From: Occultella kanbiaonis
GTDB taxonomy: Bacteria; Actinomycetota; Actinomycetes; Actinomycetales; Beutenbergiaceae
Reading direction: 5' to 3'
Assembly: GCF_009708215.1 (NCBI RefSeq)
Contig: NZ_CP046175.1
Location: 868,001-932,000, forward strand
DNA: 64,000 nt
This document shows, piece after piece, positions 31,239 through 57,447 of this stretch; the stretch's first letter is position 1, and each line of letters starts with the position of its first letter. The notes under the pieces were generated by a model, which saw only the letters and a list, made by a program, of their open reading frames with translations, made no database searches and was not told where the DNA came from. The position numbers and the translations under genes are program-made.

Positions 31239-31291
31239 GGAACGTTCCACCCCGGCCGCGCTGGCCGCGGAGTCTCCGACGCGACCACGAT
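31239..31291 (+). promoter_or_regulatory. ESX-type promoter module, copy 1 (weaker)
   Basis: GGAACGTTCCACCCC (31239-31253), CTGG at 31261 (22 nt from the start of the module) and CACGAT at 31286 (47 nt) match the geometry of the copies at 37353 and 37753. The last box departs from TANNNT in its first base. It lies upstream of the WXG-type gene at 31366. Confidence 0.6.
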
Positions 31292-31365
31292 GGGGATCCG
31301 GTCGACGCGGCTGCTCCCCAGCTGGCGTCGCGCTGCGACACCCCGAACAGTTCTGCGAGGACCCG

Positions 31366-32271
31366 ATGAGCACTGTCACCCACGGCGGCGACGTCGATGC
31401 CCTGATCGCGACCGCGAAGGCCTACGCCGCCGGCGCGGAGCAGCTCCGCACGGTCTGCGTGCGCATCACGGTCGGCCTGTGCCACACGATGATCTGGAAC
31501 GGCCCGGACGCCCTCGCCGCGCGAACCGCATGGGAACTGGAGTGGTCGCCGGCACTCATGCGGGCGTCGAGCGCGCTGATCGACGCAGGTCTGGAGTTGG
31601 TCGAGCACGCCGAGGACCAGCTTCGGACGAGCGGGGCGGGCGTGGCCGGATCGGGTCAGGCAGGAGTGGGCGCGGGTGCCGCGGTAGGGACCGCGGCCGG
31701 CGCGGCCGCCGGCGGCGCGGGCGGGCAGGGCCCGAGCCCTTTCGGTGACCTACGAACGAACCTCGAACGATTGCGCTCGTTCGCGATGAGCCTGCCGGAA
31801 CTGGCCCTGCAGGCGCGAACGTTGCGCGTCTTCGAGGACGTGGCGAACAACCTTGCCACGGCCGAGGTCGCCCGGGAGTTCATCGAGGCCGGTGTCACCA
31901 ACGCGGAGCGCGTGGGGCTGGCCGGACTGTCCGGCCTCGGCACCGTTCTCGACGCCCACGGACTGGTGACCGGCATCGAGGAAGGCGACGCGACCGCGAT
32001 CGTCCAGAACGGCACCTCACTCGGTATCACCGCGGCGGCGCCCTGGATCGGCTCGGCGGTGTCCGGTGGGGTCGGGGCGGCATGGGGCGTCGGGAGCGTG
32101 GCCGGTGGCCTGATCTATGACGGGATCCAGGGCACCCGCTACAACGAGATCCTCACGGACATGACGGACGAGGCGTTCAAGGAGAACGGCGTCCTCGGCA
32201 TTGCGCAGGTGCCAGGACTGCTCGCGTTCGCGGCCTGGGAGGCGCTGACCGAGGACGACCCTGGTGAGTAG
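31366..32271 (+). CDS. WXG-type ESX-like protein with C-terminal glycine-zipper region
   Basis: This 301-residue protein has a helical N-terminal domain carrying WNG at residues 44-46, the position of the WXG turn in ESAT-6-like proteins. An Ala/Gly-rich linker (about 90-120) follows. The helical C-terminal part contains a glycine-rich hydrophobic stretch around PWIGSAVSGGVGAAWG and GSVAGGLIYDG. GAGGA precedes ATG 31366, and an ESX-type module lies upstream. It looks like a secreted substrate whose C-terminal part could insert in membranes. No known toxin active site is visible and no immunity gene is obvious. The function is unassigned. Confidence 0.68.
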   Translation: MSTVTHGGDVDALIATAKAYAAGAEQLRTVCVRITVGLCHTMIWNGPDALAARTAWELEWSPALMRASSALIDAGLELVEHAEDQLRTSGAGVAGSGQAGVGAGAAVGTAAGAAAGGAGGQGPSPFGDLRTNLERLRSFAMSLPELALQARTLRVFEDVANNLATAEVAREFIEAGVTNAERVGLAGLSGLGTVLDAHGLVTGIEEGDATAIVQNGTSLGITAAAPWIGSAVSGGVGAAWGVGSVAGGLIYDGIQGTRYNEILTDMTDEAFKENGVLGIAQVPGLLAFAAWEALTEDDPGE

Positions 32272-32311
32272 CCACCGACCGGGGCCAACGTTGGTGAGCA
32301 GCCACCGACCG
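32262..32311 (+). repeat. 20-bp direct repeat at the stop of the WXG-type gene
   Basis: TGGTGAGYAGCCACCGACCG occurs at 32262-32281 and 32292-32311 with one mismatch. The first copy contains the TAG stop codon of the upstream gene. Its role is unknown; a small duplication is the simplest reading. Confidence 0.7.
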
Positions 32312-32361
32312 AGACTCCCGCCGACCTGTGACTTGCACCGTCGGGCGATCCTGCCGACCTG

Positions 32362-34398: not shown

Positions 34399-34411
34399 GT
34401 GTTCTATCGTA
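34398..34411 (-). promoter_or_regulatory. -10 box and leaderless start of the DUF222-HNH gene
   Basis: Minus-strand TACGAT (34411-34406), seven bases, then ATG at 34398. Confidence 0.5.
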
Positions 34412-34503
34412 GGTCCATGCTCGAGAATCCGCAAGATATCAACGAAAATGTGGATACCGGGGCATCGGCACTCGCCCTGTGGACGGGGGTTCTCATCGGT
34501 GGA

Positions 34504-36493: not shown

Positions 36494-37348
36494 ATGCTAC
36501 GGGTGACGCTGCGCGGGTCGGGCGTGCCGACCGTGGTGCTCGGGACCGGCGACACCCTGCTCGTGGGCCGGTCGCCGGACAGTGCGCTGCCCGAGGTCGA
36601 CGCGGACACCCAGCTGCATCTCACTGCCCTCGCCCTACCCCGCGTCGCACCGCACGTGTCCCGCGTGGTCGGTGAGGTCCAGGTCGGCGAGGAGGTCGTC
36701 CGGCTCCGCTGGCGCGGCAGCACCGGCGCCCAGCTCTCCTCCCTGTTCGACGCCCCCGGCGGTGCGCGCCGGGTCGCGCTCTCGGAGGGCATGGCCGCGC
36801 TGCTCGACGAGGGCGAGAACCACCTGCTCGTCCTGCGCGGCCGGCAGACGGCCACGGGGACCTTCACCGACCTCGTCCTCGTCGTGGACGTCGAGGAGGT
36901 CCGAGACGAGCCGGCGCCGGTCGCGCTGGTCGCCGAGGGCGACCCCGACGGCGCCGCCACCGCCGACGCGCCGCACCTGGAGCGCTGGTCGCGCGAGTGG
37001 TACGTGGCACTCGCCCTCGCCGAGCCCTGGTTGACCGGCGCGGACGACTACCCACGGCCGCCGTCGAACCGGGAGATCTACGAGCGCATCCTGCACTGGC
37101 GCGGCCACGCCTGGAACCTCGAACGCGCGCAGCGCGTGGACGACGCGATCCGCTCCGTGGCCCGCCTCGCGTTCGGCCCGGACGACGACCCGTTCACCGT
37201 GACGGAAGGCCGCGTGCAGAACGTGAGGTTCGCCGTCGGGCGTCGTGCCGCGGAGGTACGACTGGTGACGACGGCGGACCTCGAGGCCGTCCACGAGGCC
37301 CGTTCGCGCGGTGCCGGCCTCAATCCTGGGGCTCCGACCGCGCCGTAG
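36494..37348 (+). CDS. FHA-like domain protein at the head of the ESX-type locus
   Basis: This 284-residue protein has an N-terminal beta-rich domain whose opening LLVGRSPDS and later RVAPHVSRVVGEV resemble the GRS...H-SR strands of FHA phosphothreonine-binding domains (about 1-90). The C-terminal half is helical and charged, with WSREWYVALALAEPWL and YERILHWRGHAWN. It probably reads phosphorylation by a Ser/Thr kinase such as the one at 55483. TAGGCT at 36462 is a possible -10. It lies 103 bp before the first WXG100 gene and is not preceded by the shared ESX module. Confidence 0.6.
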   Translation: MLRVTLRGSGVPTVVLGTGDTLLVGRSPDSALPEVDADTQLHLTALALPRVAPHVSRVVGEVQVGEEVVRLRWRGSTGAQLSSLFDAPGGARRVALSEGMAALLDEGENHLLVLRGRQTATGTFTDLVLVVDVEEVRDEPAPVALVAEGDPDGAATADAPHLERWSREWYVALALAEPWLTGADDYPRPPSNREIYERILHWRGHAWNLERAQRVDDAIRSVARLAFGPDDDPFTVTEGRVQNVRFAVGRRAAEVRLVTTADLEAVHEARSRGAGLNPGAPTAP

Positions 37349-37352
37349 CGGC

Positions 37353-37405
37353 GGAACCTTCCACCCCCTGTTCGCTGGCTTCTCCGGCGACGGCGCTCCT
37401 AGCGT
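37353..37405 (+). promoter_or_regulatory. ESX-type promoter module, copy 2
   Basis: GGAACCTTCCACCCC (37353-37367), CTGG at 37375 and TAGCGT at 37400-37405. TAGCGT fits the TANNNT -10 pattern. Transcription would begin near 37412, about 40 nt before the WXG100 start. The palindromic half GGAA-NN-TTCC looks like a protein-binding site. Confidence 0.7.
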
Positions 37406-37451: not shown

Positions 37452-37730
37452 ATGACGTACGACCGCTCGCAGTTCTACGGCATCGACACCGAGTACTCCC
37501 GGGACGCCTCCCGGAACATGGACACCGGCGCCCAGGACCTCAAGTCCATGGTTGGCAACGTCTCCGCCATGCTCGAGTCCGTGCTCTGGATCGGGCCTGC
37601 CGCCAGCAAGTTCAAGCAGGACTGGGACGGCTCCCTGCGCCCCGAGCTCGAGGCCGCCACGGACTCCCTCAGCGAGAACGCGGCCGAGTTGCGCCGCCGC
37701 GCCGACCTCCAGGACGAGGTCTCCAGCTGA
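37452..37730 (+). CDS. WXG100-family ESX protein
   Basis: This 92-residue all-helical protein has the WXG turn as WIG at residues 46-48, centrally placed. It has no signal peptide, as in EsxA/EsxB-like proteins that leave through type VII secretion as helical-hairpin dimers. AGGAGG precedes the ATG. The nearest similar protein is the one at 39189, and the two may pair. It is controlled by the module at 37353. Confidence 0.87.
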   Translation: MTYDRSQFYGIDTEYSRDASRNMDTGAQDLKSMVGNVSAMLESVLWIGPAASKFKQDWDGSLRPELEAATDSLSENAAELRRRADLQDEVSS

Positions 37731-37752
37731 GGTCGCCGGCCGCCGCCGGGGC

Positions 37753-37805
37753 GGAAGTTTCCACCCCCACGGCGCTGGCCCCGGCAGCGATCGACTGCCT
37801 AGCGT
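37753..37805 (+). promoter_or_regulatory. ESX-type promoter module, copy 3
   Basis: GGAAGTTTCCACCCC (37753-37767), CTGG at 37775 and TAGCGT at 37800. The element positions are the same as in copy 2, shifted by exactly 400 bp. It gives the Gly-rich WXG-type gene its own promoter behind the first WXG100 gene. Confidence 0.7.
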
Positions 37806-37905: not shown

Positions 37906-39093
37906 ATGACCGGGTTCCAAGGCGCCGACGTCAGCGCGCTCGACGAGATGGCCCAGAAGGCCCAGGAGGGTGCCGACTACGCGAAGATGATCGCGAAGGC
38001 GCTGAAGCTCGTGGTCAAGGCGCTCCGGGCGATGAGCTGGACCGGCTGGGCCGCCGCGTTCGCCAACTACCTCGAGTTCACCGTGATCCCGTGGATCGAG
38101 ACCACCGGTGAGGCGCTCGAGCGGTTCGCCAACATCCTCAAGGCCGCCTCGGCCCTGCAGAAGGCCGTCAGCGGCGACTCGCCGTCGGTCTCCATTCCGG
38201 CGAGCGCCTACACCAGCCCGAACATGCCGGCCACGACGGCGGTCAACCCGCCGATGCTGTCCGCGCCGCTGCCGGCCATCTCGAACGGGCAGATGCCCAC
38301 GGGTGCCGTCGGTGACGGGGCCGTGGTGATCACGCCGACCGGAGTCGGCTCCCGGTCCAGCTCGCTCGGCAACACCGGCTCGAGCGGCGGTGGCGCCACG
38401 ATCATCACCCCGGACGGGCTGACCATCCGCTGGGACGGCACGGGCACCCTCGGCCTGTCCACGGGCGGCTCGGCGGCCAGCTCCACGAGCCTGCCCGCCG
38501 TGATCTCCGGCCAGGGCGCGGCCTCGGCCGCCGTCGGCGGGGGAGCCGCGGCGCTCGCCCCGATGGCCGCCGCGGCACTCGCCTCGGGCGGCTCAGGATC
38601 CGGCCCGACGGCGTCCGGCGGCTCCGGTTCGTCGGGCTCGCTCGGCGCGGGGTCGCTCGGGTCGGCGTCACTGGGGTCCACGGGTGCGTCCGGCGGCTCC
38701 GGTGGTGGGTCTGGCTCGGGCACCGGCGGCGGTGGCGGTGGGCTCGGCTCGGGCGGCCTCGGATCGGCCGGCTCCGATGGGTTGGGCCCCGGCTCCGGTG
38801 GCGCCGGTCTCGGCGCCGGGTCCCTCGGACGCGGCGGCCCTGGCATCGCGCCGGGAGACCCGGCCACGACATCGGCTCCGGTCACCTTCGGTGCCGCCGG
38901 CGGGGCCAGCATCGGCACCGCCACCGGCGGCTCGCCACCGCTGCTCGGCGCGGACACCGTCACCGGCGGCTCCTCGACCAACCCTGCTCTCCTCGCGGCA
39001 CCCCTCGGGCTCGCCGGACTGGGCACCGCGGCACTGGGTGCTCTGCGCCGGAAGGACGGTGATCAGCCCGATGGCCTCGACGACGAGGACTGA
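37906..39093 (+). CDS. Large WXG-type protein with Gly/Ser-rich body and C-terminal hydrophobic end
   Basis: This 395-residue protein has a helical first 95 residues with WTG at 45-47, like a WXG100 domain. A Pro/Ala linker and some 200 residues of Gly/Ser-rich low complexity (units such as GSGSLGAGSLGSASLGS) follow. A hydrophobic segment PALLAAPLGLAGLGTAALGAL is followed by the basic end RRKDGD. The last feature suggests a membrane anchor at the C-terminus. It resembles the PE/PPE and Gly-rich ESX substrates in plan but not in family motifs. The AAAGGAG site lies before the ATG. It is probably exported and surface-located (inference). Confidence 0.65.
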   Translation: MTGFQGADVSALDEMAQKAQEGADYAKMIAKALKLVVKALRAMSWTGWAAAFANYLEFTVIPWIETTGEALERFANILKAASALQKAVSGDSPSVSIPASAYTSPNMPATTAVNPPMLSAPLPAISNGQMPTGAVGDGAVVITPTGVGSRSSSLGNTGSSGGGATIITPDGLTIRWDGTGTLGLSTGGSAASSTSLPAVISGQGAASAAVGGGAAALAPMAAAALASGGSGSGPTASGGSGSSGSLGAGSLGSASLGSTGASGGSGGGSGSGTGGGGGGLGSGGLGSAGSDGLGPGSGGAGLGAGSLGRGGPGIAPGDPATTSAPVTFGAAGGASIGTATGGSPPLLGADTVTGGSSTNPALLAAPLGLAGLGTAALGALRRKDGDQPDGLDDED

Positions 39094-39188: not shown

Positions 39189-39458
39189 ATGAGCACCACC
39201 GTCTACGGGATGGACATCACCGCCGCACGCGACCTCGTCCGGGTGATGAACTCCGACGCCGACGTGATCAACCAGCTGACGGCGCAGCTGACCCAGCAGC
39301 TTGAGGCGACCCCCTGGTACGGCCCGGACGCGCAGCGGTTCACCAGTGACTGGCAGGGCCAGTACGTGCCGGCCCTGCAGAACGTGGTCCAGGCACTCCA
39401 AGAGAACGCGACGATCCTGAGCCAGCAGGCCGACGACCAGGAGCGCGCCTCCTCCTGA
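39189..39458 (+). CDS. WXG100-family ESX protein
   Basis: This 89-residue helical protein has WYG at residues 43-45 and no signal peptide. It starts 95 bp after the Gly-rich protein, with AGGGA before its ATG and no ESX module of its own, so it is probably on the transcript from 37753. It is a likely partner of the WXG100 protein at 37452. A strong hairpin at 39494 follows its gene. Confidence 0.87.
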   Translation: MSTTVYGMDITAARDLVRVMNSDADVINQLTAQLTQQLEATPWYGPDAQRFTSDWQGQYVPALQNVVQALQENATILSQQADDQERASS

Positions 39459-41442: not shown

Positions 41443-41588
41443 TGCGCCCCCCTCGTTGTGTGGAGGCTGGCAGGGCGCACGCTGGTGGGCAATGGAGCGA
41501 CGCGCCCGAGATCGAGCCCAGCGATTGGGGTGCTCGTCCTGACGCCGCGCGACGAGCGCTCGGTACCGTCGATGCGTACACACGCGGC

Positions 41589-41640
41589 GGAAGTTTCCAC
41601 CCCACCGTGCCTGGACCGACGTCGCGGACGCTCATAGCGT
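41589..41640 (+). promoter_or_regulatory. ESX-type promoter module, copy 4
   Basis: GGAAGTTTCCACCCC (41589-41603), CTGG at 41611 and TAGCGT at 41635-41640, 46 nt from the start of the module. Transcription from here would begin about 35 nt before the EccC-like start codon at 41682. Confidence 0.7.
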
Positions 41641-46136: not shown

Positions 46137-49100
46137 TGGCACGGGGCAAGCGCAGTCCGATGAGCTGGTGGCGTTCGCGCACCTCCGGTCGCGGCCGTGA
46201 GCGTGGCTTCGTGGAGGCCGGCGTGGCGGCGGCCGGTGGGCTGCTCGTGGTCGGCGCCGTCGTCGGCAACGGGGTCGCCGCCGCGCTGATCGACATGTCC
46301 GACGGGCAGACCTGGTTGGCCGACGACGACGGCCGTGTGGTGCAGATCAACCCCGCCACCGGCCAGCCGGAGCGGCGCCTGATCATCGGCGAGCCCGGCA
46401 GCGAACTGGAGGTCTCCCAACGGGACGGGCAGCTCATCGTCACCGACCTGACGACCGGGATGATCACCGCCGTCGACCTGGCCAGCCTCGTCGCCAGCGG
46501 CGCTCGCGGCGTGGACCCCGAGACCGAGGTGCTCGTGGGAGGCGGTCAGGTGGTCCTGGTCGACCTCGAGCCCGGCACGGTCCGGGCCGTGGACCCGCTC
46601 ACCCTGCGCGACCTCGGCCGCCCGTTCCGCACCGGTGACCTGGCCGACGCCGTCATCGACGATGAGGGGTCGGTCTGGATCATCGCTGCCGATGGCACTC
46701 TGACCGAGCTCGACTACTCCCCGGACGCTGCCGAGTTCGTCACGTCGACGTCCCGGCCGGTCGCTGGGGCGGGCCCGCAGTCCCGGCTGGTGCCGCACGC
46801 GGCTGGGGTGACCGTGTTCGCTCCCGACCAGGGCTCCGTGGTGCAGGTCGGCGCCGGGCGGGATCTCGCCGTCAGCGTCGCGGCTCTCGAGGGCACCGTC
46901 GCCGAGGCGGACTATGCCCCGGCGGACCTGGTGCCTGCCTCGGCGGAGGAGGCCGGCCGGGTGTTCCTGCTCACCGACGGGCGGATCCTGAACGTGGACG
47001 TCGGCGATCTCGGCTGTGAGCGGCCCGGCAGCCCGGCCGTGTTCGCCGGCAAGGTGTACGTGCCGTGCCTGGGCAACGGCCGGGTCATCGTCCTGGACTC
47101 CAGCGGTGCTCGAGCCGGCGCTGACATCGTGGTTCCCGGTGGTGGCGACCCGACCCTGGTGGTCGACGACGGCCGGCTCTACGTGAGCACCCCGCAGGAC
47201 GGCCGGATCGTGGTGGTCCAGCCGGACGGGTCCACCCAGATGGTCGACGTCGCCGCGGCCGAGGTCCCGGTCCAGGCCGCGGACCGGCCCCCACCCGCAA
47301 GACCCACCGTGCCGGTGACGAACCCGCCGGTGCACAACCCGCCCGTGAACAACCCCCCGGTGAACGTGCCGCCGCCGGCCACGCCCGACCCCGACCCGAC
47401 CAGTGATCCGACCGACGGCGGGAACGGCAGCAACGGGAACGACGCCGACCTGGCGCCCTCCGGCCTCGCCGCACAATTGCGGGCCGACGGCACGGTGACG
47501 CTCACCTGGACCCCGCCGGTGACGACGCCCGGGTCGGTCCGGGTGACGAGCTCGGACGGCGTCGCCGACCGGGCGGTCGCACCCGACGCCACGACCCTCG
47601 ATGTGCCCGGCCTGTCCTGTGGCTCGATGATCACGCTCACCGTGACCGCCACCCACGCCGGCGGCAGCACCGGGGTCGGCTCCACCGGGATCCGCACCGC
47701 CGACTGCGTGACCGGCGTGAACCCGGCCGACCTGGCACCCACCAACGTGCAGGCGGCCCAGCGCGCCGACGAGAGCGTGCGGGTCACCTGGACGGCCCCG
47801 GCGGAGCCCGCGAACGAGATCCGGGTGACGAGCTCGGACGGGACCGCGAACCAGACGCTCGCCGCCGACGCCACCACGGTCGACCTGACCGGGCTGACCT
47901 GCGGACGCACCCTCACCTTCACCGTCACCGCCTACCACGACGGCGGCATCACCGGCGCAGCGAGCGGCACCGCGACGACCGCGGCGTGCGCGGTGGACCC
48001 GGCCGACCTTGCCCCGACCGGGGCGAGCGCGGCCCTGCGCGCCGACGACAGCGTCCAGGTCAGTTGGACCGCGCCCGAGGTCGCCCCGAACGACTACCGC
48101 GTCACGAGCTCCGACGGCGCGGCCAGCCAGATGGTCGCCGCGGGCGCCTCGTCCGTGGACCTGACCGGCCTCACCTGCGGCCGCACGCTGACGTTCACGA
48201 TCACCGCGAACCACGACGGTGGGCAGACCGGGGCGGCGACCGCCAGTGCCCGCACCGCCGACTGCCCGACGACGCCGCCGCCCACGGTGGAGGCAACCGC
48301 CCCGACGAACGTGACCGCCACCCTGAACGGCGACAACACCGTGACGGTGTCCTGGACGGCGGCAAGCTCCGGCGCCGACGAGTACCGGGTCTCGCCGAAC
48401 GGTGGCGCCGCGACGTCCGTGACCGGGACGTCCGCGACCCTGACCCTGGCTCCGGGGGCGTACACGTTCACCGTCACCACCCAGCTGGACGACACGAGCG
48501 CCACGTCCGCGGCGAGCAACGCCGTGACCGTGGCGGGGGCACCCGGAGCCCCGGGCACACCGGCGATCGGCGGCGTGACGAACAACGGCTCCCAGGTGCA
48601 GGCCAACGTGTCCTGGTCCGCCGCCCCCGCGAACGGCGCCGCGGTGACCTACACCGTCACCTACACCGGTGGCTCGCTCACCACGACGGGCACCTCGACG
48701 GCGCTCACGATCAACTGCGCCGGTGCGTCACCGTGCGCCGCCGGCGGCACGCTGAACGTGAGCGTCACCCCGTCGAACGCGATCGGCACCGGGGCAGCGT
48801 CATCGGCAGCGGCGAGCGTGCCCGCGCCGCCGCCCCCACCGCCCGCGAACGGGGATTCGGTGGTCAGCAACATCCAGTGGTCGGCGCCCGGCCTGTACGA
48901 CGAGATGATCCCGTTCAGCGTCGACGTGTCCCCGCCCGCCGGCTGGTCCGCGCACACCGGTACCTGCACGCTGTACGTCTCGGGCGGCGGGATCAACGAC
49001 TCCCGGGTGATCGCCTGCAACTCGAGCGGGGCCGTGTACGGGAACGCCGCGCTCGGACGTGCCACGATCAGCGCCTACGTGGTGGCCACCGGCGCCGCGG

Positions 49101-49474
49101 TCAACGCGACCTCGGCCACGATCAGCGAGCAGCTGCCAGGCCGAGGTGACTGGGCGCATTGCACCATCAGCCCGCGCATCTGCACCCAGCCCAACGCCTT
49201 CGACCCCGGGAACCCCGACGTCGAGATCGTCCCCGCACCCTGGGCGCCGCCCGAGGTGCCGAGCCCGCCCGTCCTCGCCGCCGGCTTCGGGCTGCTCGGC
49301 GCCGCCGGCCTGCTGCGCACCCAGCGCCGCCTCGCCGAGGTCCCGGTCACCAGTGCGGCCGTCACCAGCACGACCGGCACCCACCCCGCCCCGGCCAGAG
49401 CGAGCACAACCACCGTGCCAGCGACCGCCGTCGACCCTGATCGACCCGACCCGACCGGAGACCAGTCCCGATGA
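46133..49474 (+). CDS. Membrane-anchored FN3-repeat surface protein
   Basis: This 1113-residue protein has an N-terminal basic leader and one helix (about 27-50). A beta-propeller-like region with WLADDDGRVVQINPATG-type units (about 55-380) and a Pro/Asn linker (NPPVHNPPVNNPPVNVPPP) follow. Then come three 88-residue Cys-bearing FN3-like repeats, further FN3-like domains and a C-terminal hydrophobic segment (VLAAGFGLLGAAGLL) with Arg-rich end. It is mostly outside the cell. Coupled by ATGA to the EccC-like gene upstream and to moxR downstream, it is the main extracellular component of the locus. The FN3-like parts may bind a polymer or partner cell (inference). Confidence 0.78.
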   Translation: MMARGKRSPMSWWRSRTSGRGRERGFVEAGVAAAGGLLVVGAVVGNGVAAALIDMSDGQTWLADDDGRVVQINPATGQPERRLIIGEPGSELEVSQRDGQLIVTDLTTGMITAVDLASLVASGARGVDPETEVLVGGGQVVLVDLEPGTVRAVDPLTLRDLGRPFRTGDLADAVIDDEGSVWIIAADGTLTELDYSPDAAEFVTSTSRPVAGAGPQSRLVPHAAGVTVFAPDQGSVVQVGAGRDLAVSVAALEGTVAEADYAPADLVPASAEEAGRVFLLTDGRILNVDVGDLGCERPGSPAVFAGKVYVPCLGNGRVIVLDSSGARAGADIVVPGGGDPTLVVDDGRLYVSTPQDGRIVVVQPDGSTQMVDVAAAEVPVQAADRPPPARPTVPVTNPPVHNPPVNNPPVNVPPPATPDPDPTSDPTDGGNGSNGNDADLAPSGLAAQLRADGTVTLTWTPPVTTPGSVRVTSSDGVADRAVAPDATTLDVPGLSCGSMITLTVTATHAGGSTGVGSTGIRTADCVTGVNPADLAPTNVQAAQRADESVRVTWTAPAEPANEIRVTSSDGTANQTLAADATTVDLTGLTCGRTLTFTVTAYHDGGITGAASGTATTAACAVDPADLAPTGASAALRADDSVQVSWTAPEVAPNDYRVTSSDGAASQMVAAGASSVDLTGLTCGRTLTFTITANHDGGQTGAATASARTADCPTTPPPTVEATAPTNVTATLNGDNTVTVSWTAASSGADEYRVSPNGGAATSVTGTSATLTLAPGAYTFTVTTQLDDTSATSAASNAVTVAGAPGAPGTPAIGGVTNNGSQVQANVSWSAAPANGAAVTYTVTYTGGSLTTTGTSTALTINCAGASPCAAGGTLNVSVTPSNAIGTGAASSAAASVPAPPPPPPANGDSVVSNIQWSAPGLYDEMIPFSVDVSPPAGWSAHTGTCTLYVSGGGINDSRVIACNSSGAVYGNAALGRATISAYVVATGAAVNATSATISEQLPGRGDWAHCTISPRICTQPNAFDPGNPDVEIVPAPWAPPEVPSPPVLAAGFGLLGAAGLLRTQRRLAEVPVTSAAVTSTTGTHPAPARASTTTVPATAVDPDRPDPTGDQSR
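47444..48265 (+). repeat. Three 264-bp tandem FN3-encoding units
   Basis: Units at 47444-47707, 47726-47989 and 48002-48265 each encode exactly 88 residues. They open ADLAP, contain a VTSSDG and a GLxCG segment and end in an -AC or -DC. Each has two Cys (in L[ST]CG and at the end), fitting a disulfide per repeat. Units 2 and 3 are the most alike. Confidence 0.88.
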
Positions 49475-50454
49475 CCGAGAACCCCCTGGCCCCCACCGAG
49501 GCCGACGTCGCCCGGTTCCGCCTGCTGCACGATGCGGTGGTCGACGCCGTGTCCGTCGCCCTGCAGGGCAAGCGGCCGGTCATCGAGCTGGCCACCGTGT
49601 CCCTGTTCGCTGGCGGGCACGTGCTCCTCGAGGACGTCCCCGGCACCGGTAAGACCACCCTGGCCCGCGCCATCGCCGCGGCGCTCGGCGGCTCCTCCCG
49701 CCGGATCCAGTTCACCCCGGACCTGCTCCCGGCCGACGTCACCGGCACCTCCGTGTTCGAGCCCGGCACCGGCCAGATCAGCTTCCGCCCCGGCCCGGTG
49801 TTCACGAACGTGCTGCTCGCCGACGAGATCAACCGGGCCGCCGCGAAGACCCAGTCCGCCCTGCTCGAGGTGATGGCCGAGCGCACCGTCACCGTCGACG
49901 GGATCGGCCACACGGTGCCGGACCCGTTCGTGGTGATCGCCACCCAGAACCCGATCGACCTGGACGGGACCTACCGGCTCCCGGAGGCCCAGCTCGACCG
50001 GTTCCTGGTGCGGATCACGCTCGGCTACCCCGACGTCGAGCACGAACTGGCCGTGCTGCGACCCGGCTCGCGCGCCGGTGTGGTCGAGGAGGTCCCGGAG
50101 GTCACCAACCCCGAGACCGTCGCGGCCGCCTCCCGGCAGTTGCGGCACCTGCACGTGGCCGAACCGATCCTCACCTACATCCGCGCCATCGGGGCGGCCA
50201 CCCGCGCCGACTCCCGGCTCCGGCTCGGGGCGAGCACCCGGGCCCTGCGTGGCCTCGTGGCCGCCACCCAGGTCTACGCCGCCGCGCAGGGCCGCCACTT
50301 CGTGGTCCCGAGCGACGTGCAGCGCCTCGCCGGTCCCGTGCTCGCCCACCGCCTCGTGCCGACCCGGGACGCCCTCCTCGCCGGGGACACCACCGAGGCC
50401 GTGGTGACCGACGCCGTCGGCAGCGTGGAGGCACCCCGCCCGGTGCCCGCATGA
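49471..50454 (+). CDS. moxR: MoxR-family AAA+ ATPase
   Basis: This 327-residue AAA+ protein has Walker A LLEDVPGTGKTTLARAIAA, Walker B VLLADEINRAAAKTQSALLE, sensor 1 VIATQNPIDLDGTYRLPEAQLDR, the arginine finger in the same segment, and a C-terminal helical lid. MoxR proteins act as chaperone-like ATPases, usually beside DUF58 and VWA proteins, as here. The start overlaps the FN3 protein gene stop by ATGA. Confidence 0.9.
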   Translation: MTENPLAPTEADVARFRLLHDAVVDAVSVALQGKRPVIELATVSLFAGGHVLLEDVPGTGKTTLARAIAAALGGSSRRIQFTPDLLPADVTGTSVFEPGTGQISFRPGPVFTNVLLADEINRAAAKTQSALLEVMAERTVTVDGIGHTVPDPFVVIATQNPIDLDGTYRLPEAQLDRFLVRITLGYPDVEHELAVLRPGSRAGVVEEVPEVTNPETVAAASRQLRHLHVAEPILTYIRAIGAATRADSRLRLGASTRALRGLVAATQVYAAAQGRHFVVPSDVQRLAGPVLAHRLVPTRDALLAGDTTEAVVTDAVGSVEAPRPVPA

Positions 50455-51608
50455 GGCTGACCGGTCGCGGTTGGGCCGTTCTCGGCTCGACGGCGGCGCT
50501 GCTCGGGTTCGGGCTGTGGGCCCGGTATCCGGGTCTCGTGGGGCTCGGTGCGGTCCTCGCCGTCGCGCTGGTGTGTGCGCTCGTGACCGTGCTGGTGCCC
50601 GCGCCGTTGCGGATCCGGCGCCGGGTGCGCCCGCCGCGGGTGGCCCGCCTCGAGGAGTGCTCGGCGACGGTCGAGGTCACGAACGCGTCCACGTGGCTGG
50701 CCCAGTCCGTCACGGGGCACGACCTGGTCGGCGGGCGACGCACCCCGTTCGTCCTTCCCCGGATGCCGCCCGGCGCGACGGTGAGCACGGACGTGCCGAT
50801 CCCGACCGCCCACCGCGGCGTGATCGACTTCGGTCCGCTGACCCTGCACCGGTTCTCGTTCCTTGACCTGATCGAGGTCGGTCAGGAGCACGGGGACAGC
50901 GCCGCGGTGCTCGTGGAGCCGCGGATCCTGGACGCGCTGGGGCTCCCGGCCGGCGCCCGCCGCGGCCACATCGGCGCGGACGAGCGGATCGCCCACGGTG
51001 GCACGGACCTCGTGGGGCTGCGCGAGTACGTGGCCGGTGACGACCTGCGCCGGCTGCACTGGGCGACCAGTGCCCGCCTGGCCACCCTCATGGTCCGCGA
51101 GGACGCCGACCCGTCGGCTCCGCACCTGACCGTGCTCCTCGACGACCGGGCCGGTTCGTATGCCGGCTCCCACGACGGCGAGGATTTCGAGGAGGCCGTC
51201 GACGTCGCCGCGAGCCTGCTCGCCGCGGCCGCCGGGGTCGAGAGCCCGGCCCGCATCGTCACGATCGGCGCCGGCCTCGACGAGCAGCTCCCGGCACCGG
51301 CGCCCGCGACAGGTCCGGCCGGCCTCGACCCGCACGTGCTCGGCGCCCTCGCCCGGCTCGAAGCGAGCGACGGCGAGCAGGGCTCCGGTCTGTTCGCCGG
51401 CTCCCCGGACGTGCTCGCCGTGATCACCGGCCCGAACAGCGACCTGGGCGACCTTCTCCTCACGGCGTCCGGGGCGCCGTCGGGCGTGGTGCTCGTCGTG
51501 GACCCGCAGCCCGAGGCGCTCGTCTCCGCCCAGCAGGGCGTGCTGGTGCTGCGCGGCCCGCGCGCCGAGGAACTCGTGCATGGCTGGCGGACGGCGGTGG
51601 CCCGATGA
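50451..51608 (+). CDS. DUF58 domain protein (VWA-like)
   Basis: This 385-residue protein has two N-terminal membrane segments (about 8-50, including GWAVLGSTAALLGFG and GLVGLGAVLAVALVCALVTV). The DUF58 signature LREYVAGDDLRRLHWATSAR follows, and then LMVRED and a VWA-like LTVLLDDRAGSYAG strand. It is encoded directly after moxR with an ATGA overlap, the usual DUF58-MoxR pair. It probably serves as an envelope assembly or folding adaptor (inference). Confidence 0.88.
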   Translation: MRLTGRGWAVLGSTAALLGFGLWARYPGLVGLGAVLAVALVCALVTVLVPAPLRIRRRVRPPRVARLEECSATVEVTNASTWLAQSVTGHDLVGGRRTPFVLPRMPPGATVSTDVPIPTAHRGVIDFGPLTLHRFSFLDLIEVGQEHGDSAAVLVEPRILDALGLPAGARRGHIGADERIAHGGTDLVGLREYVAGDDLRRLHWATSARLATLMVREDADPSAPHLTVLLDDRAGSYAGSHDGEDFEEAVDVAASLLAAAAGVESPARIVTIGAGLDEQLPAPAPATGPAGLDPHVLGALARLEASDGEQGSGLFAGSPDVLAVITGPNSDLGDLLLTASGAPSGVVLVVDPQPEALVSAQQGVLVLRGPRAEELVHGWRTAVAR

Positions 51609-53941
51609 GCAGGTTCGCGGCCGCGGCCTGGTCGGCGCTCGTGGTGGCGCTGTCCACCCTCCCGCTCGCCGCCGGGTACTCCTCGCCGGTCGCGATCGGC
51701 GTGCTGATCGGCTGTGCGATCGTCCCGTTCGGCGTCGCGGCCCTTGGCCGGGTCGCCAAGATCGGCCGCGGCTGGGTGGCCGTCGCCGGCACCGTGCTCG
51801 CGGTGAGCGCCGCCCTGATCCTGCTCGACGGCGTCGACACCGAGTCCCAGCCGGTTCCCGGCTGGCGCGCCAGCCCGGCGCTGAGCGTGCTCGGCCCACT
51901 GATCGACTCGGTCCCGCGGCTGCTCACCGCGCCACGACCGGCACCGGCGGACGTCGGCTACCTGGTGCCGACCGCGCTGCTCGTCTGGATCGTCGCGCTC
52001 GGCGTGGCCGTGGTGGCCGTCGGGCGTGCCCGTGCCACCGCGGCCCCGCTCGTCGGTGCCGTGGCCCTGCAGGTGGCGGGTGCCCTGCTCACCGCCGGGC
52101 GCGGGGACCCCAGCGGCGCGGTCGCCCTGGCCACCGCGGTCGTGCTGCTGCTCGGCTGGGTGCTGCTACCCTCGCAGGCGCGGGCCTCGGCCCGGGTCGG
52201 CGGCGAGATTCCCACGGAAACAGAGTCGACCTCGTCGCCGACGGTGGCGAGCGGGCTCGAGAAACCTGCGGCACCCGCGCGCCGTGGCCTGCTGGTGCCC
52301 GCGGTCGCCGCCCTGATCCTCGCGTCGTTCGCGCTCACCGCGGCGGCGGTACCCACCGTGCGGTCCTTCGAGCCGCGCGCGCTGGTGCCGCCGCCGGAAC
52401 TCCCGCTGGCCGCGACGAACCCGATCCCCGCCCTGTCCCTGTGGAACTCCCGGCCGAACACCCCGCTGCTGAGCGTGAGCCCGGACGGCGCGAACCTCCC
52501 GGAGCGGCTCACGATCGCCGCGCTGCCCGATTTCGACGGCGCAGCCTGGACGATCGACGCCCGCCTGCGTGCCGTAGGGGTCGTCGACGAGCCCGACCTG
52601 GACCCCGGCACCCGGCAGCGGGAGGTCGCCTACGTGCTCACCGACTCCGCGCTCGGTGGCGTGTGGGTGCCGTCCGCCGGGATGGCGCAGTCAGTGGCCG
52701 GCGCCGACGTGCTGATGGACACCGATACCGGCGTGCTCGTGGCACCCGAGGGCCTCGGCGCCGACCCGGTGACGATCCGCGGACTCCTCGACGCACCAAC
52801 GGACACCGAGATCGGCCGGGCCGGGACGCCGATGGCAGAGGTCGCCACCCGGTACCTCGAGCTGCCCCGGATCCCCGCGTCGCTGCGTGAGGAGTCGGCC
52901 GCGCTGATCCAGGGCACGACCTCCCGCTGGGAGCAGGCGGTCGCGATCGCCGAGGGTGTTCGGGGGGAACGGACCCTGGACGTGGGGGCACCGTCGGGAT
53001 CGTCCTACGGGCGCATCCAGGAGTTCCTCTTCCTGCCGGCGGCCGACGGCGGCCAGGTCGGCACCTCCGAGCAGTTCGCCGCGTCCTTCGCAGTGCTCGC
53101 CCGGGCCGCGGGCCTGCCCACCCGCCTGATGATCGGGTTCGACCTCACGGACGCGGTGGCCGGCGCCGACGGTTCCGTGACGGTGACCGGCGACGATGCG
53201 CGCATGTGGGCCGAGGTCTACTTCGCGCGCGCCGGCTGGGTGGCCCTCGACCCGAGCCCGGCCACCAGCACCGACACCGGCGACCTCCCGGAACCGCCGG
53301 CCGGCGACGACCAGCCCGATCAGCCTGAGGACGTGGGCGCCGAGGACGACCAGGACGCCGACGTGAACGTGGCCGAGCCCGGTGACGACGCCGACGGCCA
53401 GACCGGAATGAACGTCGTCACCGGCCTGACCCTGCTCGCCGGGCTGGCCCTGCTCGGGGTGTTCGCCGTGGCGGGGCTGGCCATCGCCCGGGCGGTGCGC
53501 CGGCGCCGGTGGCGGGCCGCCGGAGCCGTGGGTGCCTGGGCGCAGGTGCTCGACGCCGCCGTGCTCGCCGGCCGGCCGGTGCCATCCTCGAGCGCAGCGC
53601 CCGACGCGGCTCGCGCGCTGGCCGACGCGACCGGGACCGGACGCTCCGCGCCGGACCGGACCCCGGGACGTCCGGCCTCGGCGGCCCCGGAGGGCCGGGG
53701 CACGACCGCGCTGATGCTGGCCGAGCGCGCCGAGCGAGCCGCGTTCGGACCGGAGCCGCGCGCGGGGGCGAGCACCGCCGTCGGGCAGTCGGCCCCAGCC
53801 GGAGCACCATCGGTGGCGACGTCCGACTGGGAGCTGGCCATCGCCGTCGAGCGTGACCTGCGCGCGCGCGCCGGCGCGTGGCGGCGCGCGGTGTGGTGGG
53901 TCTCGCCGGCGGTACTGAGAGGCCGCAGGGCCGAGCGGTGA
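51605..53941 (+). CDS. Transglutaminase-like membrane protein with altered catalytic residues
   Basis: This 778-residue protein has several N-terminal membrane helices over the first 190 residues. A linker and a transglutaminase-like domain near 480-570 follow, then one more helix (MNVVTGLTLLAGLALLGVFA, about 600) and an Ala/Arg-rich tail. The core keeps the frame of the family, for example EQFAASFAVLARAAGLPTRL and WAEVYFARAGWVALDPSP. However, the catalytic Cys of the usual G-x-C-E-x-F position is Ser (TSEQFA), and the His before the Trp is Arg (ARMWAE). The Asp in LDPSP remains. It is therefore probably inactive as a peptidase/transglutaminase and perhaps scaffolds instead. ATGA overlaps join it to the DUF58 gene. 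Confidence 0.75.
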   Translation: MSRFAAAAWSALVVALSTLPLAAGYSSPVAIGVLIGCAIVPFGVAALGRVAKIGRGWVAVAGTVLAVSAALILLDGVDTESQPVPGWRASPALSVLGPLIDSVPRLLTAPRPAPADVGYLVPTALLVWIVALGVAVVAVGRARATAAPLVGAVALQVAGALLTAGRGDPSGAVALATAVVLLLGWVLLPSQARASARVGGEIPTETESTSSPTVASGLEKPAAPARRGLLVPAVAALILASFALTAAAVPTVRSFEPRALVPPPELPLAATNPIPALSLWNSRPNTPLLSVSPDGANLPERLTIAALPDFDGAAWTIDARLRAVGVVDEPDLDPGTRQREVAYVLTDSALGGVWVPSAGMAQSVAGADVLMDTDTGVLVAPEGLGADPVTIRGLLDAPTDTEIGRAGTPMAEVATRYLELPRIPASLREESAALIQGTTSRWEQAVAIAEGVRGERTLDVGAPSGSSYGRIQEFLFLPAADGGQVGTSEQFAASFAVLARAAGLPTRLMIGFDLTDAVAGADGSVTVTGDDARMWAEVYFARAGWVALDPSPATSTDTGDLPEPPAGDDQPDQPEDVGAEDDQDADVNVAEPGDDADGQTGMNVVTGLTLLAGLALLGVFAVAGLAIARAVRRRRWRAAGAVGAWAQVLDAAVLAGRPVPSSSAAPDAARALADATGTGRSAPDRTPGRPASAAPEGRGTTALMLAERAERAAFGPEPRAGASTAVGQSAPAGAPSVATSDWELAIAVERDLRARAGAWRRAVWWVSPAVLRGRRAER

Positions 53942-53984
53942 GCGTGGCCGGGTCGGCGAGCGTGCCGGCCGATCAGGCGGGTTC

Positions 53985-53997
53985 TAGGCTGTCCGGG
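53985..53997 (+). promoter_or_regulatory. -10 box and leaderless start of the Eis-like gene
   Basis: TAGGCT (53985-53990), six bases, then the GTG at 53997. No ribosome site precedes the codon. Confidence 0.55.
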
Positions 53998-55364
53998 TGA
54001 CCCGACTCAGCGCACCCAGCGTCCCGGCCGACCCGACCTCGAAGGAGCGCCTCGCCGCCCGAGGTCTCGACTACCGCACCGTCGACACAGCCGACCGCGA
54101 CGCGTTCCTGAACGCGATGCAGGCCGTCACGCGCGGGTTCCTCGGACCGGAGATCACCGGCGCGGCCGTCGCCGAGGAGTCCGAGCCGACCGAGGGCCGG
54201 CGCTACCTCGGCATCTTCGATGAGGCCATCGCGCAGCCGCAGGTGCCGGTCGCGACGATCGACTCCTGGGTCACCCCGCTGAGCGTGCCCGGCGGCGAGC
54301 TCGACATGTGGGCGATCAGCGGTGTCACCGTCGCCGGCACCCACCGGGGCCGCGGGATCGCACGGGCCATGCTTGAGGGCGAGCTCCGCGCCGCCGCCGA
54401 CGCCGGGCTCGCCATCGCCGGCCTCACGGTGACCGAGACGACGCTGTACGGGCGGTACGGCTTCGGCGCGGCCGTGCCGATGAGCACGTGGACGATCGAT
54501 ACCCGCCGCGCCGGGTGGGCCGGGCCGGACGTCGCGGGCCGGGTCGAGTTCGTCTCCCGGGAGCAGCTCGCGAGCGACCTCGGACAGGTGCACGAACGGG
54601 TGCGCACCCGGCGGGGCGGGGAGATCGCGGCGTGGCCCCGGCGGTGGCAGCAGGCCGCGGGCCTGTCGACTTCGGTGAAGGACGGCGACCACGTCCGCGG
54701 CGTTCGCTACGTCGACGCCGACGGTGAGGTCCGCGGCGCCCTCGCCTACCGGGTGATCGAGAACGAGCGCGAGTTCACCCAGTCCCGCCTCAACATCGGC
54801 GTCCTCGTCACCGAGACCCCGGACGCGGCCGCCGCACTGTGGGGATACGCGCTGCAGCACGCGCTCGTCGCGGAGGTCACGGCGTCCTTGCGGCCGACCG
54901 ACGACCCGGTGCGCTGGCTGGTGCGGGACGAGCGCGGCGCGGTCCAGACCATCCGCGACCACGGCTGGCTGCGGATCCTGGACCTTCCGCAGGCGCTCCG
55001 GGCGCGGACGTACTCGGCCGCCGCGGACGTGACCGTGGAGGTCACCGACCCGCTCGGGCTGACGAGCGGGACGTGGCGGGTGCGGACCGCACTCGATGGC
55101 GGGGCCGACGTGTCGAGAGTGAGCCCGGGGGAGTCGGCCGCTCCGGCCGAGTCAGGTGCGACGGGTGCGTTGGCGCAGTCGCGTGCCACCGGCGTTGCGG
55201 ACGTGCGCCTCGGCATCGCGGAGCTGTCCGCTGCCTACCTCGGTGGCACGCCCCTGACCGGGCTGCTCGCGGCCGGCCGGATCGCGGGGGATACGGCCGC
55301 GGTCGCCGCCCTCGATGCGGCGCTGCGCCCCGCCCAGCCACCGACGCTCAGCATCTGGTACTGA
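53997..55364 (+). CDS. GNAT-family N-acetyltransferase, Eis-like
   Basis: This 455-residue protein has the two-GNAT-plus-SCP2 plan of Eis-type enzymes. The first GNAT domain has ISGVTVAGTHRGRGIARAM (acetyl-CoA binding) and YGRYGFGAAVP. A second GNAT-like domain fills the middle, and a C-terminal beta-rich portion ends TLSIWY, where the C-terminal carboxylate may act as base. A disordered insertion (SPGESAAPAESGATGALAQS) precedes the last helices. Eis acetylates aminoglycosides and other amines. The GTG start is supported by the box at 53985. Confidence 0.83.
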   Translation: MTRLSAPSVPADPTSKERLAARGLDYRTVDTADRDAFLNAMQAVTRGFLGPEITGAAVAEESEPTEGRRYLGIFDEAIAQPQVPVATIDSWVTPLSVPGGELDMWAISGVTVAGTHRGRGIARAMLEGELRAAADAGLAIAGLTVTETTLYGRYGFGAAVPMSTWTIDTRRAGWAGPDVAGRVEFVSREQLASDLGQVHERVRTRRGGEIAAWPRRWQQAAGLSTSVKDGDHVRGVRYVDADGEVRGALAYRVIENEREFTQSRLNIGVLVTETPDAAAALWGYALQHALVAEVTASLRPTDDPVRWLVRDERGAVQTIRDHGWLRILDLPQALRARTYSAAADVTVEVTDPLGLTSGTWRVRTALDGGADVSRVSPGESAAPAESGATGALAQSRATGVADVRLGIAELSAAYLGGTPLTGLLAAGRIAGDTAAVAALDAALRPAQPPTLSIWY

Positions 55365-55422
55365 GCAGCGCACGCTCTGCGGCGCCGGTCTCCGCCGCTG
55401 ACCCAGCACCTATCGCGCTCAC

Positions 55423-55445
55423 ATCGCACCGTCGGACGGTGCGAT
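55423..55445. terminator. Bidirectional hairpin between convergent genes
   Basis: Stem ATCGCACCGTC pairs with GACGGTGCGAT (11 bp), separated by one base, so the tip of the stem must open. It lies between the ends of the Eis-like gene and the kinase gene and could end both transcripts. Confidence 0.6.
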
Positions 55446-55478
55446 CTGACCGTGGTGGGTGCGATCTCAGCGTGGTGG
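55439..55478 (+). repeat. 20-bp tandem repeat next to the hairpin
   Basis: Two 20-bp units beginning GTGCGATCT and ending GTGGTGG lie at 55439-55458 and 55459-55478, differing at three or four bases; a partial third copy runs on. The first shares its start with the right arm of the hairpin. Confidence 0.7.
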
Positions 55479-55482
55479 GTGC

Positions 55483-57345
55483 TCAGCGGCAGAGGGTGTC
55501 GGTGGAGCCGGCCTCCAGGCCGGTCTCGGTGATGGCGTAGCCGACGATCGCGTAGCAGTCGCCGGTGGCGTCCGGGTCGAGTCCCTCGACGACGTACTCG
55601 CCGGGGTCCGACGTGAGCTGCTGGAGCACGCTGGCCGGGGAGCCGTCCGCGGGGACGTCGACGATGAGGAGGTAGTCGACCTCGGACGGGGCAGGTGCCC
55701 AGGTCAGCAGCACCGAGGTGCCCTGTGACGTGAGCACCGGGTTGACCGGAGCCAGGTCCGGATTGCCGACGGTGGGCTGCGGCGGGGCGTCCCCGGTCCG
55801 GACGTCGGTCGGAGCCTCCGGTACGTTCACGCCGGTCTGCGACGGAGTCGGGTCCGGTTCCTCCTCGCCACGGAGCAGCGCGGACCCGATCCCGAATGCC
55901 GCGCCGACCAGCAGTGCGCCGCCGACGAATGCGACGATCCGCCGCCAGGTCGTCCCGGAACCCTCGCCGGACGTGACCGGGGCGCCGGCCGGAGGCTCGG
56001 GCGCAGGTTCCGGGCCGAGGCCGGTGGCGTCGTCGTCGATCGGGGCGGGCCGGCCCTGGTGCCCGACGTGCGCGAGCACCGAGGGGGCCAGCGGCGAGGG
56101 CTGGGGTGCTGGTTCCGGTGCGGCCGGCGGTTGCCCGGGTGCTGACGTCCGCACGGAAGCCGCCGACGGCGGTGCCTCGGTACCCGTGGCGCCCGGCGCC
56201 CACGAGGGCGGTGCGTCGCCTGCCGCGGGCGCCGCGGTCGCGGCAGCGGGACGGGAGGGTGCGGCGGACCCGGTCGGTGTGCTGGGTGCGGCCGGGGCGG
56301 CGGAGGGCGCGGCGACGGTCGCCGCCGTCGCGGCGGTCCCGGCCGCTCCCGCGGCGGGGGCCACGGCTCCGCTCGCCGGGTCCCAGGACCGGCCCTCGGT
56401 CCGGATCGAGCGCAGCCGGTCAAGCGCCTGCGCGGCCGTGGGGCGCCGCTCGGGCTCCGCGTGCAGGCCGGCCTCGATCAGGTCGCGCAGTCCGGCGGGC
56501 AGCTCGTCGGTCTCCAGAGGTCGGCGCGCCCCGGTGCGGACCCGGCGCAGGTAGGACAGCGCCGTGTCGTCGTGCGGGTCGAGCGCGGCGAACGGGGCCC
56601 GCCCGTCGAGCAGCGTGAACAGGGTGGACGCGAGGGACCAGACGTCGTCGGCCTCGGTCGGGGGGAGGCCGTCGAGCACCTGGGGGGAGGCGTGCCGGTA
56701 GCTGAACCGCTCCACGGAGGCGGTGTGCCCGGCGTCGGCCATCCGGGCGATGCCGAAGTCGCTGAGCACGTAGGACGTCGGCAGCAGCAGGACGTTCTGC
56801 GGCTTCACGTCCCGGTGCAGCACCCCGCGCGCGTGCGCGAACGCGAGCGCGTCGGCCACGGCGGTGCCGGCGGCAACGACCTCGGAGACCGGCAGCGCAC
56901 CGTGTGCACGGACCCGGTCGTGCAGCGATCCGAGATCGTGGAAGTCCATGACCAGGCAGGGGTCACCGTCGGCGGTCGTGGTGGTGTCCAGCACGTTGAC
57001 GATGTGCGGGTGCTGGCGACCGAGGGCCACGGTGATCGCGAGCTCGCGCTCGAACCGGGCGGCCGCCGACGGGTCCGCCGTGATCACCTTGATCGCGACG
57101 TCCCGGTCGAGGCTGTCCTGACGCGCCCGGTACACGACGCTGTCACCGCCTTCTCCGACCTCGACCAGGTGGGAGTAGCCCGCGACCGACACCGCCGACG
57201 GTGTCGCCGGGGCACGCTCGACCGGGTCGCCGGCAGAGCGGCTGGGATCGTTCGGACCGGCAGGACCGGGCCGTCGGCCGGACGTGGCGCCGACCGCTTC
57301 CGCCAACGGGCGTGGGGCCGCGGGCGCCCAGTCGTCGTCGGACAC
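55483..57345 (-). CDS. Ser/Thr protein kinase with extracellular FN3-like domain
   Basis: This 620-residue transmembrane kinase has VGEGGDSVVYRA (glycine loop), VAIKVI (Lys), HRDVKPQNVLL (catalytic loop) and DFGIAR. A long Ala/Pro-rich juxtamembrane region and one helix (IVAFVGGALLVGAAFGIGSA) lead to an outside segment of about 130 residues with an FN3-like fold, including LLTWAPAPSEVDYL and a final Cys. GTG 57345 is chosen because GGAGGGGG lies just upstream; the ATG at 57388 is in another frame. Its promoter carries the ESX-type module (minus strand), so it should be co-regulated with the WXG and EccC-like genes and may phosphorylate partners read by their FHA domains. Confidence 0.85.
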   Translation of the reverse strand: MSDDDWAPAAPRPLAEAVGATSGRRPGPAGPNDPSRSAGDPVERAPATPSAVSVAGYSHLVEVGEGGDSVVYRARQDSLDRDVAIKVITADPSAAARFERELAITVALGRQHPHIVNVLDTTTTADGDPCLVMDFHDLGSLHDRVRAHGALPVSEVVAAGTAVADALAFAHARGVLHRDVKPQNVLLLPTSYVLSDFGIARMADAGHTASVERFSYRHASPQVLDGLPPTEADDVWSLASTLFTLLDGRAPFAALDPHDDTALSYLRRVRTGARRPLETDELPAGLRDLIEAGLHAEPERRPTAAQALDRLRSIRTEGRSWDPASGAVAPAAGAAGTAATAATVAAPSAAPAAPSTPTGSAAPSRPAAATAAPAAGDAPPSWAPGATGTEAPPSAASVRTSAPGQPPAAPEPAPQPSPLAPSVLAHVGHQGRPAPIDDDATGLGPEPAPEPPAGAPVTSGEGSGTTWRRIVAFVGGALLVGAAFGIGSALLRGEEEPDPTPSQTGVNVPEAPTDVRTGDAPPQPTVGNPDLAPVNPVLTSQGTSVLLTWAPAPSEVDYLLIVDVPADGSPASVLQQLTSDPGEYVVEGLDPDATGDCYAIVGYAITETGLEAGSTDTLCR

Positions 57346-57395
57346 GCGAACCCCCTCCCCGGACGGGCGCCGTCGACCCGGCGCACATGAGTCCG

Positions 57396-57447
57396 AGGAT
57401 AGGCGGTGCCCGGCGCGATCGCGGCGTGGCCGGTGGTGGAAGGTTCC
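57396..57447 (-). promoter_or_regulatory. ESX-type promoter module, copy 5
   Basis: On the minus strand GGAACCTTCCACC (57447-57435), then CACC in place of CC, and TATCCT (57401-57396) at 46 nt from the module start. The CTGG element is absent. The expected transcript would start about 44 nt before the kinase GTG. Confidence 0.6.

Follow-up and report, generated by a model that had tools for sequence, protein, structure and literature searches.

The type VII locus and its repeated promoter module

The window examined here, a 64-kb stretch of the Occultella kanbiaonis genome (contig NZ_CP046175.1, positions 868,001 to 932,000), contains a type VII secretion locus in which an inverted repeat recurs in front of several genes. 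The locus (Table 1) combines an EccC/EssC-like ATPase with WXG100-like proteins, the pair of components by which a type VII system is recognised, here through matches below cut-off; the ATPase matches TIGR03924, TIGR03925 and TIGR03928, all below their equivalog cut-offs. Upstream of the esx gene B lies a gene for a protein designated REG, and a Ser/Thr protein kinase, K, is encoded on the minus strand. The initial annotation of the window had reported five copies of a motif at 31239, 37353, 37753, 41589 and, on the minus strand, 57447, each before an ESX-type gene or the kinase. All five are present at these positions, with genes A, B and C, the EccC-like ATPase and the kinase downstream. The CTGG described at +22 from the motif start was found in four of the five copies, and the -10-like hexamer at +46 or +47 in all of them, being TAGCGT at +47, +47 and +46, TATCCT at +46 (57447) and CACGAT at +47 (31239). 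The GGAA/TTCC palindrome is indeed an inverted repeat but was drawn too short, as the full dyad spans 16 bp, GGCGGAA-NN-TTCC(A/G)CC, usually with CC directly after it.

The motif GGAANNTTCCACC occurs five times in the window, compared with a mean of 0.02 in 100 dinucleotide-preserving shuffles, none of which reached five. The 5.65-Mb genome contains six exact matches, five of them inside the window; about 1.2 would be expected from the window base composition, and the reversed pattern, used as a control, gave none. The sixth match, C1:507286, was assigned to the background because the remainder of the module is missing and only 25 model positions are matched (E 0.07). It stands before a gene labelled by eye as an ankyrin-repeat lipoprotein. 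When 42 sites were aligned, the columns within GGAANNTTCCACC were invariant by construction. Outside the search pattern, the C at -1 is invariant (42/42), and C at +13, C at +14 and T at +23 are found in 37, 40 and 35 of the 42 sites, respectively.

Table 1. Inverted repeats and genes of the type VII locus, in window coordinates
Feature	Position	Strand	Remarks
Inverted repeat before WXG-like gene A	31236..31251	+	-10-like CACGAT 31286-31291; orthologous sites in three other Occultella
Gene A, 301 aa, WXG-like	31366..32271	+	29% similarity to small WXG gene B2; no Pfam match
REG, 284 aa, candidate regulator	36494..37348	+	FHA/SMAD-like N-terminus (model), conserved helical C-terminus; no Pfam/NCBIfam match
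Inverted repeat GGCGGAA-NN-TTCCACC before esx gene B	37350..37365	+	-10 TAGCGT 37400-37405
Gene B, 92 aa, WXG100-like	37452..37730	+	PF06013 E 0.0025, TIGR03930 E 3.7e-5, both below cut-off
Inverted repeat before gene C	37750..37765	+	-10 TAGCGT 37800-37805
Gene C, 395 aa, Gly/Ser-rich	37906..39093	+	WTG motif near N-terminus; no family matched
Gene B2, 89 aa, WXG100-like	39189..39458	+	Matches below cut-off; without own module in the window
Inverted repeat before EccC-like gene	41586..41601	+	-10 TAGCGT 41635-41640
EccC/EssC-like ATPase, 1484 aa	41682..46136	+	FtsK_SpoIIIE E 4e-49, FHA domain E 6e-11
fn3 protein, MoxR ATPase, DUF58 protein, transglutaminase	46223..53941	+	Downstream of eccC
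Ser/Thr protein kinase K, 620 aa	55483..57345	-	Pkinase E 4e-40
Inverted repeat before Ser/Thr kinase	57435..57450	-	-10 TATCCT 57396-57401 (minus strand); Occultella-specific

Conservation, specificity and geometry of the module

To place the motif in a wider context, its exact form was searched in the host genome and 58 relatives. It clusters at the same locus in 11 genomes representing four genera of the host's family, where A, B, C and eccC orthologues follow the sites, as does the kinase in Occultella. These 11 genomes contain 49 exact matches, of which 44 are found within the type VII locus or upstream of gene A; this count includes a single copy at the eccC/fn3 boundary that has no -10. 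The 13 family members that lack the module have nine scattered exact matches altogether, a background rate; one of the five matches outside type VII loci in genomes with REG, and five of the nine in genomes without REG, were inspected. The motif is thus not as common before unrelated genes as before ESX genes. In Serinibacter, the copies at this boundary (L040:10786, L167:8536) have no TANNNT box; they were read as coding sequence and left out of the model.

Two profiles of the whole module, R1 and R2, were built from 41 and 49 sites. In the host genome R1 recovers the five window sites and one more, C1:2036225-2036286 (E 1.6e-5), with the next match at 0.07. Across 396 genomes of the host's order, R2 gives 57 matches at E<=1e-3 in 14 genomes, and 56 of them, from 13 genomes, precede type VII system genes or WXG effector genes. 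These 56 include four Occultella kinase sites and six sites before a small gene, E1, with the WXG gene E2 behind it; seven were outside the training set (one each at G010 C11 and G018 C1:931072, two in G267 and three in G391). The remaining match, in G231 (E 2.3e-4), covers model positions 16-61 only and lacks the dyad, and there is no GGAANNTTCC(A/G)C in the surrounding 11.6 kb. It should be mentioned that the filters of the 396-genome scan are strict, and the module of one genome, G163, was missed. At a lax E<=0.1, weak matches appear in seven of the 13 family genomes without REG, the best at 0.001, and these are taken as noise. In loci carrying REG or type VII genes, 72 of the 77 unique sites precede a gene of the type VII locus; the five exceptions comprise two true sites read on their opposite strand, one site truncated where its locus ends and two with no assigned gene. 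Because those loci had been chosen for REG or type VII genes, the 59-genome, own-genome-profile and 396-genome figures are the less biased measures of specificity.

The proposal that the module predicts the function of unlinked genes is borne out by two kinds of site. The module at C1:2036225-2036286, 1.1 Mb from the window, precedes E1 and then E2. Three further Occultella and two further genera keep the site at these genes; in G003, E1 is absent and the module stands directly before E2. No Pfam model matched E1, and an earlier 'EspG-like' label was dropped for lack of Pfam support. A possible hydrolase motif was noted by eye in E2. In the host genome, about 24 nt separate the start of this dyad from a TAGCGT box that belongs to a divergent gene, so that a bound regulator could affect that gene as well. 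The second kind of site was found in G018, from the genus of Serinibacter arcticus, where a module unlinked to the type VII locus precedes a gene (L146:9638-10645) encoding a WXG100-like N-terminus (E 0.008, below cut-off) fused to a VgrG3-like C-terminal domain (PF21277, E 1e-40); the -10 of this module is CAGGAT, not TANNNT. The fusion protein is a candidate antibacterial type VII effector that would use a type VI effector domain. In Microbacterium luticocti, a module copy without TANNNT precedes a gene touching an alpha/beta hydrolase domain (PF06259, E 1.6e-4 over 27 residues, the product being partly read).

A shared module had been claimed for the WXG genes, the EccC-like operon and the kinase. 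For the WXG and EccC genes this holds across genera, but for the kinase it holds only in Occultella. All five lineages compared have a gene of this kinase family within the cluster or next to it; its promoter carries the dyad in Occultella only, and the upstream regions of the four other lineages have at least three mismatches. The kinase is therefore not a core member of the regulon.

The geometry of the promoters was measured in the loci carrying REG or type VII genes, which contain 204 unique oriented GGAANNTTCC sites with both strands counted. TANNNT lies at +46 in 36 sites and at +47 in 42, and at most once at any other offset from 12 to 79. The T of CTGG stays at +23 in both spacing classes (0.81 of the 36 and 0.93 of the 42), so the spacing from dyad to -35 is fixed, and the one-base shift is in the -10. 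In the E1/E2 promoters with a TANNNT box, the ATG follows exactly 13 nt past the first -10 base in seven of seven genomes, that is, these genes are leaderless, which fixes the start site and puts the dyad centre at about -54.5 or -55.5. In the kinase promoter of the window, an ATG at the leaderless position is out of frame with the kinase. The layout is that of a housekeeping-type promoter, with a -10 at a fixed distance and a start about 13 nt after its first base, as judged from the leaderless genes.

A footprint was obtained from six promoters in four Occultella species by counting variable alignment columns. None of 48 dyad-core columns and none of 18 (A/G)CC columns vary, and only 3 of 36 do so in the -35. 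By contrast, the upstream region varies in 260 of 384 columns and the spacer in 56 of 102. The dyad core belonged to the search pattern of this analysis; the flanks and the -35 did not. The fixed distances to a weak -35 and to the -10 fit the suggestion of an activator site next to a weak -35, as a rigidly placed dyad upstream of a weak -35 would be the layout of such a site. From these comparisons it appears that the inverted-repeat signal serves one ESX-type system, together with unlinked candidate effectors, in several actinobacterial families.

REG as a candidate regulator and its known counterparts

In a comparison of locus neighbours over five lineages, REG is present in all five and is the sole family there that is neither a recognised secretion-cluster gene type nor a kinase. 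Named genomes yielded 19 REG loci from eight NCBI families, in the genera Occultella, Pseudactinotalea, Serinibacter, Cellulomonas, Microbacterium, Xylanimonas, Actinotalea, Phytoactinopolyspora, Nakamurella and Granulicoccus. GGAANNTTCC is found in all 19 of these loci, and in 18 of them at least one copy has TANNNT at +46/+47; several of the loci come from the same genomes as the order sample and are not independent of it. Among the 396 genomes of the order, 14 have full-length REG. Thirteen of the 14 are all the module genomes of the R2 scan, and the fourteenth (G163) was seen on inspection to carry the module. In G358 only 44 residues of REG are matched, and this fragment was left out of the gene count. 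In the class, REG is found in nine of 394 genomes, seven of them outside the order, and all seven have the module. Fisher's test on the order sample (13 genomes with both, 1 and 1 with a single one, 381 with neither) gives 2.5e-22, a value that overstates independence because the genomes are related.

Among the 12 family genomes that have an EccC-like gene and no REG, five EccC-like loci were searched and none contains GGAANNTTCC(A/G)C in about 20 kb each; nor does the second EccC-like locus of the host genome, also in about 20 kb. This second EccC-like ATPase (about 1070 aa) occurs, module-free, in the host genome (C1:1501000-1520900) and in G009, and in both a small gene labelled by eye as WhiB-like lies beside it.

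REG is placed within the type VII locus, upstream of esx gene B, in the compared lineages. The gap to B is about 1.5 kb in G003, another open reading frame (ORF) intervenes in Phytoactinopolyspora limicola, and one contig (L228) ends behind REG. In G003 a partial second copy of the REG 3' end (C21:34227-34400) directly precedes the promoter of esx B, which looks as though an insertion had split the neighbours. The REG of Microbacterium luticocti (Microbacteriaceae) groups with Occultella in the tree (support 87/83) on a long branch, and by this placement the type VII system and its promoter module may have moved horizontally. Two further ORFs of the window are mentioned for completeness: a large one of unknown kind on the minus strand at 32362-34398, between gene A and the remaining cluster, and one of 1006 aa at 10525-13545 (minus strand) that resembles, by eye, a SARP/AfsR-type regulator.

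REG is 98-99% identical to the window's protein in Occultella species, its nearest named relatives. It has no Pfam match at E<=10, no NCBIfam match and no sequence relative in the PDB. The best fold matches of the full-length model are SMAD/IRF and FHA domains, namely IRF9 (E 5.9e-4) and the PNKP FHA domain (E 8.4e-4), and alignment to the ArnA FHA domain gives a TM of 0.67 by target (E 8.4e-3). The model thus suggests an FHA/SMAD-like fold for the N-terminal half. The Asn usual in FHA domains is absent from the GST motif of REG. The C-terminal 120 residues are modelled as five helices with a pLDDT of 82, and the identity of this domain to that of the window's protein is 66-100% across the class. 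With the C-terminal domain alone as query no wider family emerged; eight of 296 genomes gave clear matches, all of them known REG genomes, and one stop-interrupted match at E 0.0096 was dropped.

To our knowledge, the regulation of type VII secretion outside mycobacteria and firmicutes has been little studied. Actinobacterial promoters of the PafBC type share with the present module the rigid spacing between an activator element and a TANNNT -10 and differ in having another motif, directly at the -35, and a DNA-damage regulon. A dedicated activation of a type VII locus is reported for DegU and the yuk locus of Bacillus; DegU is a two-component response regulator with other DNA sites, unlike the dyad. 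For co-activators of the Wbl family, the 16-bp dyad near -54 lies further upstream than a sigma-bound Wbl protein would reach. Wbl proteins such as WhiB6 do share a site next to the -35 of housekeeping-type promoters and ESX gene targets, the link of WhiB6 to ESX-1 being made in PMC7002343. By eye, none of the conserved locus neighbours in the five lineages was recognised as a Wbl gene.

The closest analogue is EspM of mycobacteria, described as an FHA and helix-turn-helix protein whose gene lies next to ESX-1 and which binds the whiB6-espM region through its C-terminal half (PMC7002343, PMC11005418). Like EspM, REG is encoded beside a type VII locus and would have an N-terminal FHA(-like) and a C-terminal helical part, so that on paper the two resemble each other in domain layout. 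EspM, too, controls secretion genes, and the predicted targets of REG are the secretion and substrate genes themselves. EspM is longer, having at least 363 aa (the C-terminal construct ends at residue 363) compared with 284 aa; the consulted passages describe repression of whiB6 and give no target motif for EspM. No description of the regulon was found among the matches listed for type VII secretion with FHA, promoter or Cellulomonas literature, and neither GGAANNTTCC nor three alternative spellings of it occur in the full texts searched; most subscription papers lay outside the scope of both searches.

Proposed control of the regulon and its alternatives

The regulon, its fixed geometry, its footprint and its co-occurrence with REG are what the sequences themselves show. 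We consider it probable that the module controls a regulon dedicated to type VII secretion and that REG is the most likely activator. In the proposed mechanism, a dimeric activator, most likely REG, would bind the 16-bp dyad centred near -54, beside the weak -35 CTGGNN, and would help RNA polymerase with the housekeeping sigma factor to start at a TAGCGT-type -10. The regulon would comprise the WXG genes, gene C, eccC and the unlinked WXG effector genes, plus the kinase in Occultella. The FHA-like half of REG could sense a phosphothreonine, perhaps produced by kinase K, or a protein signal, and its helical half would contact the DNA, a division of labour like that proposed for EspM at ESX-1. 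An input of the kinase to REG is a guess. On balance REG itself would be the dyad-binding protein.

Several observations weigh against this proposal. The mean pLDDT of its full-length model is 66, a modest confidence, and no FHA domain is recognised in it by sequence methods (Pfam, and hhalign against the EccC FHA profile, probability 0.9%). Its C-terminal model has no significant match among solved structures, including DNA-binding folds, and this domain is not net basic (17 K+R vs 18 D+E). In Granulicoccus, REG and an adjacent repeat are present and the full module is missing. In the footprint, 15 of 42 -10 columns vary, partly from the unaligned one-base shift. A LacI-type family, in a loose single-linkage grouping with flanks of up to 20 kb, is found near the locus in four of the five lineages. 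Moreover, family genomes without REG hold only distant EccC relatives and REG always accompanies its own EccC subtype; since the two are inseparable, co-occurrence cannot prove that REG is the binder, and another regulator could co-occur in the same manner.

One alternative is that the dyad is a true activator site whose binder is encoded elsewhere, with REG serving as a cytosolic FHA-type component of the secretion machine or as a signalling adaptor. In its favour are the C-terminal domain of REG, which is not net basic and fits no known DNA-binding fold, and the LacI-type family of the loose grouping. EccC has an FHA domain of its own, and an FHA-type partner protein would fit such a machine. 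We regard this arrangement as rather unlikely, as only REG, besides recognised secretion-cluster types and the kinase, is near the system in all five lineages, and as its C-terminal domain is strongly conserved (71-91% identity to that of the window's protein, from Occultella to Nakamurella), which is expected of a reader of an invariant DNA word.

Whether the dyad activates or represses bears on a second alternative, in which it would be a repressor operator upstream of the core promoter. Repression of whiB6 by EspM, the closest analogue, is described in PMC7002343, in line with an operator. The dyad, however, lies upstream of a weak -35 and keeps its spacing to it when the -10 shifts by one base, an activator layout; we infer activation, and repression is improbable. 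The GGAA element could also be taken as the -35 of an alternative sigma factor of the ECF type, as ECF -35 elements often start with GGAAC. This was rejected, and would be very hard to maintain, because the conserved -10 sits 46-47 nt off, beyond the reach of a sigma factor; in addition, the right arm TTCC(A/G)CC is conserved as well as the left, and the leaderless starts fit the TAGCGT box. That the copies arose by chance, or as a repeated DNA element copied along with genes, is barely credible despite five copies inside 26 kb, given that flanks and spacer vary between species while the dyad and the -35 do not, and that unlinked and cross-family copies exist.

Returning to REG as activator, we put forward tentatively, as a possibility we hold at somewhat less than even chance, that REG founds a new activator family, in which an FHA/SMAD sensor is joined to an undescribed all-helical DNA-binding domain. 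Such a family would be switched by Ser/Thr-kinase signalling and would serve solely a type VII system whose cargo is antibacterial WXG effectors (VgrG3-like, alpha/beta hydrolase). If this is true, the DNA word can list the effectors of each genome.

One DNA word lists, per genome, the genes of one type VII system, including unlinked substrates that an analysis of gene neighbourhoods would miss, and REG is a testable candidate regulator from a family without Pfam or NCBIfam annotation. The kinase and the FHA elements suggest a phospho-signal that switches secretion on. In Occultella the kinase gene has been drawn into the regulon, and a feedback loop could result.

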